From Planctomycetota bacterium (lineage in GTDB: Bacteria; Planctomycetota; Phycisphaerae; UBA1845): a stretch of DNA of 35,449 nucleotides. Shown piece after piece: positions 26,065 to 35,449 of the stretch (position 1 is the first letter of the stretch; each line of letters opens with the position of its first letter). Position numbers and translations under genes: made by a program. The notes under the pieces are model-generated. The model searched no databases, was not told where the DNA came from, and saw nothing but the letters and a program-made list of their open reading frames with translations. Location: assembly GCA_024276605.1 (NCBI GenBank), contig JAJRWX010000064.1, positions 1-35,449 on the forward strand. The letters are read 5' to 3'.

Positions 26065-28281
26065 TTGGTTTCTTCCTCTCCAACAAAACCTGATCTCATC
26101 CGCTTGCGTATCGAGGGGATGACTTGCGGTAGTTGTGTCGCACACGTTGAACGTGTTCTATCCAAAGCACCCGGCGTATCCTCCGCACAGGTTAATCTAA
26201 CCACCGAAATCGCCACGATTATCCCCGTCGACAATGATGTTAAAAAGCAGCCTCTCATCGAAGCAGTCCGCGGCGCCGGATACGACGCAGCGCCGTGTCG
26301 TCAAGACGACCGTTTCGCAACCGGTCTCGAACATACACAACAATCAAAACTTCGCCGACAACGGCAAGCACTGGTGCAAGCGATTGGCCTGGCGATACCG
26401 ATTTTCGCATTGCATTGGCTAGCGCCGATCCTTCAAGGTAACCAGCATGGTTCACACGTTTGGCCAAGCGTTGCGGAGGCCATACTTTGTACCATGCTGC
26501 TTGCTTCACCGGCTGGTGCACCAATTCTTGCAGGAGGTTTTCGCGCACTGATCTTGCGGTCAGCTAATATGGATCTGCTCATCTCGCTGGGTGTTTGCGT
26601 CGCTTTTCTTTCCGGCCTATGGGCACTTCTTATCACCCACTCACCGGCCATGCACTTCCACACGGCTGCCATGATTATGGCTTTCATCAACCTTGGCCGA
26701 TACCTCGAAATGCGTGCCAAAAACAACGCAACATCTTCCATAAGCGCTTTGGTTTCACGCATACCACTTACCGCATTACGCGTCGAAAAAGATGGCTCGC
26801 AAGAGGTGCGCGTTGAACAAATCCGCACTGGTGACCATATCCGCGTTGGTCAAGATGCTATCATGCCTGTTGATGGCCGTATAATCGAAGGCCAATGTAG
26901 CGTTGACGAAAGCTCTTTGACCGGCGAACCCGCAGTCAAACCGCGCGAAGTCGGCGATGAAATTCCGGCTGGCGCACGCATCGTAGAAGGTCTTGTGACC
27001 ATACAAGCGACGCGCGTCGGCGCGGATTCTGCCATGGGACGAATTATCCAAGCCGTAGAAGATGCCCAAGCCGGTAAGACAAAAATGCAGCGCATCGCAG
27101 ACCGCGTAGCTGGTGTGTTTGTCCCCGTGGTCGTGGCTATCACCATTCTTACCGTGGCAGGTCTACTATTGCTGACAGACAACACTTTAACGACAGTGAT
27201 TAACCGAGCCGTGGCCATACTCGTCATCGCCTGTCCCTGTGCAATGGGGCTGGCTACACCTACCGCAGTCATGGTCGCTACCGGCAAAGCCGCACTGAGC
27301 GGCATCCTGGTGCGCGATGCAGCCGGGCTGGAACGAGCCGGTACGATCGACTGTCTATTGTTTGATAAAACGGGAACACTTACGGCTGGCGCGCCTACCG
27401 TATCTACCATTGATGTAGTCGCCCCGGACGCTGCTATGTCGGAAAACGACATCTTGGCATTAGCCGCAGCCGCCGATCAATACGCACAACATCCCATCGC
27501 CAAATCTCTCGTAGACGAGACAAAAAAACGAAACCTAACGCTAACCGAGCCTGACACCTTCTCCTCCACACCTGGACGCGGCGCCGCTGCCACGGTTGAT
27601 TCGCGTGAAATTCTCATCGGCAGTGCACGATTTCTCAAAGAGAACCACATTGACTTAACCCGTGCCCAGACAATCGTAGACGCATGGGAAAACAAAGGTC
27701 AGACATCCATCTTCGTCGCCGTCGATAACAACTGTCTGGGCGTCATTGGCCTGACTAATCCGCTCGTCAAAGGCGCGGCCAGTGCCATCGCCGCCCTCCA
27801 CAAACGAGGTATTTCCACAGCTATGCTCACTGGTGACGTCACCTCAACGGCCCAGGCGACCGCCAATCAATTGGGTATGACCGACATCATGAGCGAAATG
27901 ACCCCCACCGACAAACTGAATGAAGTACACCGCAGGCAGGAAAACGGTCAACGTGTCGGTTTTGTGGGTGACGGGATCAACGACGCACCCGCCCTCACCG
28001 CCGCCCATGTCGGCCTCACGTTTGCAGGCGCTACGGATGTGGCGGCAGGCTCAGCCGACATCACCATGATGCATCATGATTTACGGAATATCTTAAGCGT
28101 CATCGAATTGGCACAGCGAAGCATGCGCGTCATCAAACAAAATCTCTTCTGGGCGTTTTTCTACAACTCATTAGCCATCCCCCTAGCCGCCCTTGGAAAA
28201 GTCCCACCCGGCCTGGCGGCTGCGGCGATGATGTTTTCATCCATCAGCGTCGTTCTAAACTCACTTCGTCTGCGTTCTTGA
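26065..28281 (+). CDS. copA: Copper-exporting P1B-type ATPase
   Basis: A 738-residue pump for Cu(I). One N-terminal HMA domain has GMTCGSC (Cys21, Cys24). Then come the P1B helices, the actuator motif LTGEP (about 286-290), the transmembrane metal site CPC (390-392), the phosphorylation motif DKTGT (Asp434), HP of the SERCA-like QHPIAKSL, and GDGINDAP (Asp636). The late helix carries YNSLAIPLA and MMFSSISVVLNSLR, which are the Cu+ (P1B-1) signatures. The start is TTG at 26065; no closer ATG would keep the HMA domain. It exports copper from the cytoplasm to the periplasm. Confidence 0.95.
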   Translation: MVSSSPTKPDLIRLRIEGMTCGSCVAHVERVLSKAPGVSSAQVNLTTEIATIIPVDNDVKKQPLIEAVRGAGYDAAPCRQDDRFATGLEHTQQSKLRRQRQALVQAIGLAIPIFALHWLAPILQGNQHGSHVWPSVAEAILCTMLLASPAGAPILAGGFRALILRSANMDLLISLGVCVAFLSGLWALLITHSPAMHFHTAAMIMAFINLGRYLEMRAKNNATSSISALVSRIPLTALRVEKDGSQEVRVEQIRTGDHIRVGQDAIMPVDGRIIEGQCSVDESSLTGEPAVKPREVGDEIPAGARIVEGLVTIQATRVGADSAMGRIIQAVEDAQAGKTKMQRIADRVAGVFVPVVVAITILTVAGLLLLTDNTLTTVINRAVAILVIACPCAMGLATPTAVMVATGKAALSGILVRDAAGLERAGTIDCLLFDKTGTLTAGAPTVSTIDVVAPDAAMSENDILALAAAADQYAQHPIAKSLVDETKKRNLTLTEPDTFSSTPGRGAAATVDSREILIGSARFLKENHIDLTRAQTIVDAWENKGQTSIFVAVDNNCLGVIGLTNPLVKGAASAIAALHKRGISTAMLTGDVTSTAQATANQLGMTDIMSEMTPTDKLNEVHRRQENGQRVGFVGDGINDAPALTAAHVGLTFAGATDVAAGSADITMMHHDLRNILSVIELAQRSMRVIKQNLFWAFFYNSLAIPLAALGKVPPGLAAAAMMFSSISVVLNSLRLRS

Positions 28282-32715: not shown

Positions 32716-32785
32716 TTTAGATTGGACAAAATGCCCCAGCCCGCACTATAAAGAGTTAGCTTAACCCATGATAGTTGGAGTCAGA

Positions 32786-34234
32786 ATGCATCTTCCTTTT
32801 CTCGGATCAATCGCCATCTTCGTGTCCACCTTTGCCATGGGACCAACATCCGTAGCAGAAGATGTGCTGCCAACCATTGGCACCGGCGTGGGAGACCTGT
32901 ACCCTGATTTTCTATTGCCCAGCCTAGACGGAAAGATGGGACGCCTGTCCGATTACCGCGGCAAAAAAGTTCTCCTTATCAACTTCGCATCCTGGTGAGC
33001 AGGTTGCCGTAGACAGCTGCCCGTGTGGCAGAAACTCGTAACACCATTAGTTAATAAAGGCGATTTAACTGTCATCGGCGTCGTGCAGGAACAACATCCC
33101 GAACGAGCCATGCTATACCGTCAATGGCGGCAGTTGGATTGGCCTATCTATGTCGATTCGTTAAACCTACTCAATGTGTCAGTCGTACCATGGCCCACAG
33201 CCATCGACGAATCCGGTGTGGTTCGGCACGCTTCTATTTCGCCAAACAATTTGAAGGTAGAGTTTCTCAATCAAAACTATCCCCACACGATCGTACCGGC
33301 GAACTATAACATTGCAGACCAACCGGACCTGTCTCAGCTGCGCCTTCGTAGTCGGCAACAGAGCAACGCATCTGCCTGGCGCGATCTCGGCGATGCGCTA
33401 TGCCTGTCCGACAATAAAGACAAAGAGACCCAAGCGATCGATGCTTATCGCCGAGCCATTACACTCAACCCCATGGATGGACGAGCTTATTTTAGAACAG
33501 GTGTAGCGTTACGCCGCCGCTTTGAGTCGCCCCAACGACAGCCTGGCGACGGGCAACGCGCTGTCCTCCAATGGGGCCGTGCCTTAAATGTCAATCCCAA
33601 TCAATATATATGGCGGCGACGCTTGCAACAATACGGACCTAGACTAGACAAACCATATAACTTTTATTTTTGGATCGACCAGGCTCGAACTGACATTCTA
33701 AACCGCGGTGAGGTTCCCGTTCAACTGCCCATAGAACCTGCCGGATCGGAATTAGCTGGTCCGACGGGTCCGGGTCACATCGCTCAACAGATCCACCCAA
33801 GACGAAATGTAGATCCCCAGGGTCGTATAACACGAGATAGTCAACATCTTGTCGACCTCGAAACAATCTTAACCCCGGCCCAAACCCAACCCGGTAGCAG
33901 CGTGCGCGTGCGATTTGTTTTCCGTTTGACAGATAACAAAGCAGTATGGAACAACGAGGCTGAGGATTTGTACGTCTGGTTGACACTCTCCGGAAGTATG
34001 CGTATCACTGAAGCACAATGGACTTACAAAAATCCCCCAACCCCCGAAAGCAATGAACGTCGTGTAGTTGATGTCGAGTTGGCTTTATCCCCCGAAATGA
34101 AGCGGGCAACATTTGGGATACCTGGATACGCCCTGTACTATGTTTGCGAAAAAACTGGTGATCGTTGCCAATACCTTCGTCATGATTTCACCGTACAATT
34201 GAGCGTTGATCCAACCGCCCCAAGCCTGCGATAG
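32786..34234 (+). CDS. Selenocysteine-containing TlpA-like redox protein with TPRs
   Basis: The frame crosses an in-frame UGA (32996-32998) that I read as selenocysteine. From ATG 32786 (GGAG five bases upstream) the protein has 482 residues; an ATG at 32768 adds six. A signal peptide ends near SVAED. The thioredoxin-like domain (about 30-170) has DFLLPSLDGKMGRLSDYRGK, then INFASW-U-AGC (U71, C74) where TlpA/AhpC relatives have WCxxC, and the cis-Pro strand WPTAIDESG. Two TPR-like repeats follow (about 196-285). The C-terminal beta domain (about 350-482) contains a CEKTGDRC pair (C454, C461), reminiscent of the Cx5C site of DsbD's N-terminal domain. It is probably a periplasmic thiol-disulfide or peroxide-handling enzyme. 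A conventional gene caller would split it in two. A Cys-to-stop pseudogene is the alternative. Confidence 0.82.
33017..33031 (+). promoter_or_regulatory. SECIS-like hairpin downstream of the UGA
   Basis: CUGCC (33017-33021) pairs perfectly with GGCAG (33027-33031) around the loop CGUGU (33022-33026). The loop has G in its first two positions and a GU, as bacterial SECIS loops do. The loop G (33023) lies 25 bases after the UGA, within the spacing usual for SelB-dependent decoding. The lower stem is imperfect. The function is inferred from position and shape only. Confidence 0.65.
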
Positions 34235-34600
34235 ACAAACGTTTCATCAAACCGACAAAAGAGTACCTCGTGATTGATTGTCTAGATAGGGATTTATAGC
34301 ACTTCTGATACTCATGCCGATAACAACGTGATATTCTCTAACTTATTACCATGAAAAGGGTTACAGACCTTACCCTATAGACCCTGAGCCTTTCTGGAAC
34401 ACCCAAACAAGGTAATTACTGCATTTTTTTCTTGCCGTATGGCTGGTATCATGGTACAAGTGTTAGCGGTGCTTATGTTTGCCGATAACTCGGCGAGCGC
34501 GCGGGATGTGCTTGTCAGCCATTCATCAATTTGGGTCTGGTGGAACGGTGATTGGTACAATTTACTTGTCTGGGGTTGTGTAGAACATAAGGAGTCAGAT
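34235..34600. other. Intergenic region before the cohesin-like gene
   Basis: A 366-base gap without a credible gene. A possible -10 box TACAAT (34556-34561) lies 40 bases before the start of the next gene; its -35 partner TTGGGT (34531-34536) is 19 bases away, so it is only a weak promoter candidate. An open frame entering from 34439 is the upstream part of the next gene's frame and has no export-like start. Nothing else stands out. Confidence 0.4.
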
Positions 34601-35182
34601 ATGAGGAACATGAAAGTAGCTTTGAATTTGGGATGTACGATGGTTTTTGTATTCGCCGTCACTTCGGCACATGCCCAGAGCGCAATTTCGCAGACCGAAC
34701 CCACCTATTTTGTGAAACCGAAACAAGCTTCAGTACTCCCAGGGAGTACGCTTGTTGTGGATGTCTTCCTAGCTAACGCTACTGATATTGGTGCTGTTCA
34801 AATTCAAGTAGTTGCCAACGATCAGCAAAACAACAAGCTCGCCATGACCAGCATCACTGTTGACGAGCAGTCGCCTCTTTTTCTGTTTGGTTCCGATCAG
34901 ATCGTCAAGGCTATCGACACAAAAGGTGAACGCATTGCTTTGGTGAAATATAACGGTGGCGTGACCGCCCCTACATCCAAGCCCAAGTATATATGTACAT
35001 TCTCTTTCGATGTGCCTGCCGATGCCACTGGTTCAGTCAGTGTTGGTGTAGCTGCAGGTCAAGAGACGATGCTACTTATTTCGAGTGGTGCGGAAAGAAC
35101 TTATACGGTCAGCAGCCCGGTAACTGTAGAGGTCGTCACGGATCGCGTACGTTCTATCAAAAAAGGTCGAAGCACACGATAG
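34601..35182 (+). CDS. Secreted cohesin-like protein
   Basis: A 193-residue exported protein. AAGGAG lies seven bases before the ATG at 34601. The signal peptide covers about residues 1-26 (VALNLGCTMVFVFAVTSAHA). The mature part is beta-rich and has the look of a cohesin domain: KPKQASVLPGSTLVVDVFLAN at the start, GAVQIQVVAND, and CTFSFDVPADATGSVSVGV at the third quarter. Cohesins bind dockerins; a dockerin-like loop is present in the metalloprotease at 3638. The tail is basic (RVRSIKKGRSTR). It may belong to a cell-surface assembly, but the domain assignment is tentative. Confidence 0.65.
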   Translation: MRNMKVALNLGCTMVFVFAVTSAHAQSAISQTEPTYFVKPKQASVLPGSTLVVDVFLANATDIGAVQIQVVANDQQNNKLAMTSITVDEQSPLFLFGSDQIVKAIDTKGERIALVKYNGGVTAPTSKPKYICTFSFDVPADATGSVSVGVAAGQETMLLISSGAERTYTVSSPVTVEVVTDRVRSIKKGRSTR

Positions 35183-35310: not shown

Positions 35311-35449
35311 CTCGGGTAGGAGGCGGGGTTGCCCCCGCCGTCCTCCCACACCACCGTGCGTACGGTTCCGTACACGGCGGTTCAGTTGGAACACGCCAAT
35401 CGCCGTGATTCCTGGATGAAGCTCACGAGACCAAGCTGACGCAGGTAGC
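35311..35449 (-). mobile_element. Group II intron, 3' end (domains V and VI), truncated by window
   Basis: On the minus strand, about 35383-35349 folds as domain V: AACCGCCGUGUACG, loop GAAC, CGUACGCACGGUGGUG. About 35348-35313 forms domain VI: GGGAGGACGGCGGGG, loop GCAA, CCCCGCCUCCUACCC, with an unpaired A near its 3' end as branch point, and CUACCCGA as the intron end. This arrangement is standard for bacterial group II introns. A minus-strand frame, YLRQLGLVSFIQESRRLACS, stops at 35382-35384 and could be the C-terminus of the intron-encoded reverse transcriptase; the rest is beyond the window. The intron class is not certain. Confidence 0.8.

Follow-up and report, generated by a model that had tools for sequence, protein, structure and literature searches.

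Thioredoxin-fold selenoproteins are a known kind of protein, as are TlpA-like and redoxin-like selenoproteins with a UxxC active site, where U is selenocysteine (Sec). We know of no described selenium-dependent relay of the DsbD type in which an alpha domain and a thioredoxin (Trx) domain work together without a membrane domain. TlpA, ResA and CcmG carry a WCxxC-type site on a Trx fold, and DsbD combines a Trx-fold domain with an Ig-fold alpha domain that holds a Cys pair on a hairpin. As described in PMC7347389, these two kinds of DsbD domain exchange electrons, the alpha-domain Cys residues lie on opposite strands of the hairpin, and the alpha domain receives electrons from the Trx-fold domain and passes them to DsbC, CcmG and DsbG. 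Three selenoprotein families also lie close: NCBIfam NF041054 (WAxxUGC_long, ResA-like selenoprotein), the "Redoxin family protein" with UxxC in Table 1 of PMC13188914 (HEU0032618.1), and TsoB (NF045694, rhodanese/DsbD fusion-like), which has a row in the same table.

The gene analyzed here lies in a 35,449-nucleotide stretch of Planctomycetota DNA (contig JAJRWX010000064.1), which as a whole we call the window. Its features, with the evidence for each in brackets, are as follows.

32786..34234, + strand: predicted selenoprotein gene, 482 residues and a TAG stop, with a single in-frame TGA (Sec71)
32786..32875, + strand: likely signal peptide region, residues 1-30 (hydrophobic N-terminus, AxA-like motif)
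32876..33286, + strand: ResA/TlpA-like Trx domain, approximately residues 31-167 (Pfam AhpC-TSA/Redoxin; structure matches)
32996..32998, + strand: TGA codon predicted to be read as selenocysteine, Sec71 (frame, homologues, Sec machinery)
33017..33031, + strand: SECIS hairpin, a 5-bp stem of 33017-33021 with 33027-33031 and a 5-nt loop, CGUGU (alignment of 80 sequences)
33326..33706, + strand: helical TPR region, approximately residues 181-307 (TPR Pfam families, model helices, alignment)
33833..34231, + strand: DsbD-alpha-like Ig-fold domain, residues 350-482 (AF2 model, profile-profile comparison, Foldseek)
34145..34168, + strand: codons of C454 (34145-34147) and C461 (34166-34168) (pair in 77 of 79 parsed loci)

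The encoded protein resembles TlpA, ResA and CcmG in having a Trx fold with a C/UxxC site after a Trp, and its Trx domain superposes on ResA and its relatives over approximately 130 residues with Z scores of 14 to 15 in the best rows (4nmu, 14.8; 3gl3, 14.7; ResA 1st9, 14.3), with CcmG lower down the same list. It differs from them in that the first Cys is replaced by Sec and in the addition of TPRs and a DsbD-alpha-like domain with a second Cys pair. Like DsbD, it joins a Trx-fold domain to an Ig-fold domain with a hairpin Cys pair, but it shows no sign of a membrane domain, places the Trx domain ahead of the alpha-like domain, links the two by TPRs, uses Sec, and has a Trx domain nearest to ResA and its relatives. 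The ResA-like Trx domain is shared with NF041054, whose model is matched by all 76 of 76 members of the window family at E <= 0.01, whereas the motif named for NF041054 is U-G-C and that of the window protein is U-x-x-C. We rejected membership in NF041054, since the window protein scores 73.3 bits against a cut-off of 300 and covers model positions 67-203 of 354. TsoB is likewise a selenoprotein with a DsbD-like part but, as its table row in PMC13188914 describes it, has two Sec residues (UxxxxU) and a rhodanese rather than a TlpA-like domain. The "Redoxin family protein" shares a Redoxin-type domain with UxxC and, compared by its table description only, could be related to the window family. 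None of the 119 families in Table 1 of this 2026 catalogue (PMC13188914) is described there as TlpA-TPR-DsbD-alpha, and our literature searches, in which HEU0032618.1 was compared by description only, returned no description of a UxxC-TPR-DsbD-alpha architecture. The first-pass annotation had called the architecture undescribed, a view that the literature searched supports, with the reservation that the "Redoxin family protein" may prove to be the same family.

The open reading frames 32768-32998 and 33023-34234 occupy one frame, as was first proposed from the sequence, and the TGA at 32996-32998 is the sole break between them. Read-through from the ATG at 32786 yields a 482-residue chain ending at the TAG at 34232-34234, with no second internal stop; we prefer this start because it is preceded by a GGAGTC motif, in the window as well as in L022 and L023, two homologues from the same genus. 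The TGA falls on the first residue of a ResA/TlpA-type active site (FASWUAGCR, with U71-A-G-C74 at its center), which agrees with the original reading of this codon as the first catalytic Cys of a WCxxC motif, and the Cys/Sec complement of the chain (U71, C74, C206, C454 and C461) includes all four positions assigned at that stage (U71, C74, C454 and C461). P135 is invariant and is assigned, by analogy, to the cis-Pro position. TGA terminates 5 of the 21 larger ORFs checked in the window and is therefore an ordinary stop here, as had been noted for the neighboring genes. The family is easily mis-annotated, because a standard ORF call cuts the first 70 residues from the remainder.

From the N to the C terminus the chain comprises a likely signal peptide, the UxxC Trx domain, the TPR region and a C-terminal beta domain, an order that the first-pass annotation had anticipated and that Pfam matches, homologues and the structural model all bear out; the full-chain AlphaFold2 model, built on a 76-sequence alignment, has a mean pLDDT of 92.1 and a pTM of 0.90. 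The 76 aligned rows were selected for having the C454/C461 pair. The N-terminus is hydrophobic in 73 of these 76 rows and carries a loose AxA-like motif in 72, with possible AxA-type cleavage near SVA-ED in the window protein and low pLDDT at residues 1-13 of the model. TPR Pfam families are matched in most members, the model helices span H182 to H306, and the region contains a conserved block, PNxYIxRRRxQQYGPxLxKPYxFYxW. The protein very probably leaves the cytoplasm by way of its signal peptide and acts as a thiol-disulfide oxidoreductase.

A contig scan of genomes recovered 192 relatives; we kept and named the best 80 loci, which come from several phyla. All 80 of these carry TGA at the Sec71 codon; 79 were parsed together, and the remaining one (L115) was inspected separately and has the TGA as well. 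TGA was also present in long homologues of 13 of 59 other relatives searched, a set that overlaps the named loci. In a phylum sample, 43 of 392 genomes carry the family (E <= 1e-30), with a TGA inside every listed match that covers the site, and in a class sample the family is carried by 30 of 397 genomes (E <= 1e-20), with eight listed site-covering matches lacking TGA; these eight are the Sec-less relatives discussed below. Within the 76 pair-selected rows, A68, S69, W70, U71, G73, C74 and R75 are invariant; Cys or Sec occupies positions 71, 74, 454 and 461 in every row and no other position throughout, Cys206 not being conserved. The C454/C461 pair is present in 77 of the 79 parsed loci, and the other two (L062 and L098) are cut short.

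The first-pass annotation had raised the question of whether homologues would match U71 with Cys or carry random residues there. The 80 of 80 TGA codons answer the second part, with Sec at the site; for the first part, the best 80 of 192 relatives and the listed phylum and class matches include none whose CxxC site is intact, and the sites of the Sec-less relatives are degenerate. Nearly all selenoproteins have Cys homologues according to PMC13188914, and families without them in the 2008 ocean survey comprise GrdA and a few others, as reported in PMC2398784. From the shared pfam08534 we infer that the "Redoxin family protein" continues the "Prx-like 3" of that survey (PMC2398784), which there has 2,608 Cys homologues. 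The fusion domain of Prx-like 3 (Unknown_3), as given in the same source, has three conserved Cys including a CxxC, whereas the window family has two (Cx6C) and, within the scope just given, no intact Cys homologue.

The genome of the window (110 contigs, 96% complete) encodes selA, selB and selD above curated cut-offs and a tRNA-Sec (selC) with a TCA (UCA) anticodon, so that all four genes for which the first-pass annotation had suggested a search are present. We note that its own selD match (L010, G000:C110:14656-15579) contains one in-frame TGA, and SelD is therefore likely itself a selenoprotein in this genome. Across the phylum sample, a selA match (E <= 1e-60) was found in 39 of 43 family carriers versus 203 of 349 non-carriers (Fisher p = 1e-5), and the remaining 4 carriers have selB. 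Of 50 host genomes chosen by hand among those of the 80 named loci, 45 have a SelB that passes its cut-off and 5 do not; such a SelB is also present in 10 of 14 Sec-containing relatives, and the four without it have genomes 63 to 81% complete. In one genome of the same class (L138, G362:C46), the family gene at 94168-95547 lies approximately 1.4 kb from selA at 96947-98314. A second, short TlpA-like frame (176 amino acids) with one TGA inside occurs elsewhere in the genome of the window (G000:C75:26861-27073), and similar frames occur in several relatives.

Downstream of the TGA, an alignment of 80 sequences anchored at this codon (79 loci and the window) reveals a hairpin whose loop is separated from the UGA by 23 nt. 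All five pairs are formed in 80 of 80 sequences, with standard pairs in 400 of 400 cells, and G is the second loop base in every sequence. The outer pair varies (GC 60, CG 15, GU 3, AU 1, UG 1), and compensatory changes occur at 2 of the 5 pairs; no shuffle among 500 attains the covariation score, nor does any slid version, although 21 of the 500 have at least as many pairs (2) that vary on both sides. An amino acid switch from Leu...Gln to Val...His tracks the pairing of the hairpin, and all 60 rows that have Val in the stem encode it by GTG, a codon whose share at 18 other Val columns peaks at 51%; from each gene's own codon use, GTG would be expected at the stem position in 24 of 63. The window sequence alone folds no better after the UGA than shuffles do, the hairpin being evident only from the alignment, and the minimum free energy of 32996-33036 is -7.9 kcal/mol. 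The bSECIS model, as set out in PMC13188914, calls for an upper stem of 4 to 16 bp, a loop of 3 to 9 nt, G within the first two loop positions, 16 to 37 nt from UGA to loop and a minimum free energy of at most -7.5 kcal/mol, and the values found here (5 bp, 5 nt, G second, 23 nt, -7.9 kcal/mol) all lie within those limits. Because the TGA recurs in all 80 named loci and the genome has the Sec machinery, the codon is not there by chance, and the locus has two marks of a bacterial selenoprotein, a conserved in-frame UGA at a redox position and the selA, selB, selC and selD genes. On this comparative evidence the gene is almost certainly a real selenoprotein gene in which the hairpin directs SelB and tRNA-Sec to read UGA as Sec.

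Modeled alone, the C-terminal domain forms an Ig-like sandwich (AF2 pLDDT 95.7) with C454 and C461 on a beta hairpin of strands 441-455 and 461-474. A profile of 74 family domains was compared in hhalign with a profile of 22 DsbD_N domains, drawn from 40 matches in the window's genome and its relatives, and aligned at a probability of 96.7% over 112 columns with both Cys residues aligned (E 4.5e-10, for a single comparison). As controls, the probability fell to 0.2% with the reversed profile and did not exceed 3.2% in 15 column shuffles; replacing every Cys by Ala left it at 95.9%, and removing the hairpin at 91.6%. From these profiles we conclude that the domain and DsbD alpha are homologous, their Cys pairs falling in register, a relationship that is new here. 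Single-sequence and structural searches gave a more mixed picture. Pfam DsbD_N (PF11412) is unmatched by the window's domain at its cut-off and weakly matched by 6 of 74 relatives (best E 0.0046), and another Ig-like family, NPCBM_assoc, is weakly matched by 23 of 74 (best E 5.9e-5). In Foldseek, 7 of the first 50 rows are Escherichia coli DsbD alpha, amid unrelated Ig-like folds; DsbD alpha is absent from 50 rows of VIA-align, and a PDB profile search with the domain returned two chance-level matches only. The domain thus has what characterizes the PF11412 type, a homologous Ig fold with a Cys pair on a hairpin, with the redox activity of the pair putative.

The central membrane domain of DsbD, with its own Cys pair, has no counterpart in the window protein as judged by hydropathy, Cys count and model: the peak 19-residue hydropathy beyond residue 45 is 0.93, and the secondary structure of the model contains no long helix bundle of the membrane-domain type. 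A 19-residue stretch with hydropathy above 1.6 beyond residue 45 occurs in 19 of 76 rows, the window protein not among them. A DsbD with two alpha domains is encoded separately in the window's genome, where visual inspection also points to a DsbD-type membrane part.

We propose, with a probability of roughly 0.6, that the protein is an exported Sec-dependent relay in which a TlpA-like UxxC domain and a DsbD-alpha-like domain are joined by TPRs without the membrane domain of DsbD. The signal peptide would export the protein, which would act outside the cytoplasm, and the TPRs would hold the Sec71-x-x-Cys74 domain and the C454/C461 domain together. Two electrons would then pass between the centers of one chain through thiol-disulfide/selenylsulfide exchange, a chemistry like that between the Trx-fold and alpha domains in DsbD and its clients, minus the membrane domain. 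In the direction we favor, the membrane DsbD of the genome would supply electrons to the DsbD-alpha-like pair, and oxidized extracytoplasmic substrates would receive them from Sec71; a flow the opposite way is nearly as probable. We infer the transfer within the chain, its direction, the partner and the substrate. The first-pass annotation had suggested that the second pair might pass electrons to the Sec site, and the homology to DsbD alpha and the joint loss described below lend this putative exchange support. The most conserved part of the TPR block (PNxYIxRRRxQQYGP) is not accounted for by the relay, and a docking role for it would be a guess.

In the strongest alternative, the Sec site functions independently, either as a TlpA/ResA-like reductase or as a thiol peroxidase, C454-C461 is structural or binds metal, and the TPR/Ig part docks a partner. 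The best Pfam score of the Trx domain is to AhpC-TSA, structural disulfides on hairpins are common, and the Ig-like fold matches many non-redox domains, all of which suit this alternative. Against it stand the alignment of the pair with the Cys pair of DsbD alpha, the near-universal presence of the pair in the parsed loci, with truncation of the two exceptions, and the behavior of the eight Sec-less relatives. The sites of these read WCEAS, WSKEC, WSRVC, WHAQS, WSTKS, WDSES and GHAAS (twice); one (L035) keeps Cys at position 71 without the second Cys, and two (L036 and L193) keep C74. Placed in a common alignment, the eight show no Cys at 454 and none at 461; the domain is retained in six and missing from two, and in L187 two Cys lie elsewhere near the hairpin. 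A structural disulfide need not go with Sec, and in the six domain-keeping relatives it is nevertheless gone from both positions. All eight relatives come from one family of bacteria, some on long branches; a quick tree requires at least two changes to the Sec-less state, and two of the Sec-less rows cluster with a Sec-containing one (SH-aLRT 99%). The joint loss of Sec and the C-terminal Cys pair suggests that the two centers belong together, though the events are few. We had expected Sec-less relatives to be confined to genomes without Sec machinery, which proved wrong: SelB is present in all five genomes tested out of the eight (G053, G059, G050, G042 and G046), so Sec loss was not forced by loss of the machinery. 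In one genome a Sec-containing copy of the gene coexists with a degenerate one that lacks Sec (L191, G667:C1414; STWSTKS, no pair Cys). We regard a Sec site acting alone as unlikely, if still a serious competitor to the two-center relay.

A role in cytochrome c maturation is compatible with the relay: the protein would be a CcmG/ResA-type reductase with CcmH/CycH-like TPRs and a DsbD-type domain that reduces apocytochrome disulfides. The nearest structures, ResA and its relatives with CcmG further down, point this way, as do weak matches to CcmH/CycH TPR families in 10 of 76 members (best E 0.0009), but such TPR matches are generic, and no widely conserved neighbor emerged when 555 ORFs near 80 loci (79 and the window) were clustered, the clusters being unannotated. 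This clustering gave no conserved operon and no pointer to a substrate, the largest clusters comprising five loci at scattered positions. We consider this role distinctly unlikely. Only one cluster keeps a constant position, that of the next gene downstream (34439-35182, + strand), shared by the window and three Planctomycetota loci (L051, L052 and L054), and this gene has no Pfam or NCBIfam match. Elsewhere in the window, 26065-28281 (+ strand) encodes a heavy-metal P-type ATPase with an HMA domain, and 35311-35382 (- strand), at the window's end, matches an Rfam group II intron at 41.4 bits (gathering threshold 40) and is probably part of such an intron at the contig edge.

Reading of the UGA as some other residue, through suppression or a local code change, would explain the open frame only and is very improbable given the TGA stops in the window, the full Sec machinery with a SECIS, and the placement of the codon at the catalytic Cys position of TlpA/ResA. 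A sequencing error or pseudogene stop is scarcely credible and, like a code change, was rejected: most of the genomes are MAGs and an in-frame stop does split the ORF call, but the TGA recurs in many assemblies, approximately 400 codons are kept downstream, and the hairpin covaries.

The family, which includes members from Planctomycetota, Acidobacteriota, Verrucomicrobiota, Gemmatimonadota and several other phyla, may be a Sec-only one with a full two-center relay in one soluble exported chain, in which Sec loss accompanies loss of the second pair; we advance this wider reading tentatively, as somewhat short of an even bet. The ~480-residue proteins occur in many mostly uncultured phyla, and every member seen has either Sec or a degenerate site, which opens to testing the long-standing question of why some redox steps shun Cys. 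The fused DsbD-alpha-like domain is a candidate partner in the same chain, and the effect of a U71C change should therefore be measurable on one defined step. If the proposal is true, these bacteria would possess a selenium-dependent DsbD-type alpha/Trx relay that works without a membrane domain.
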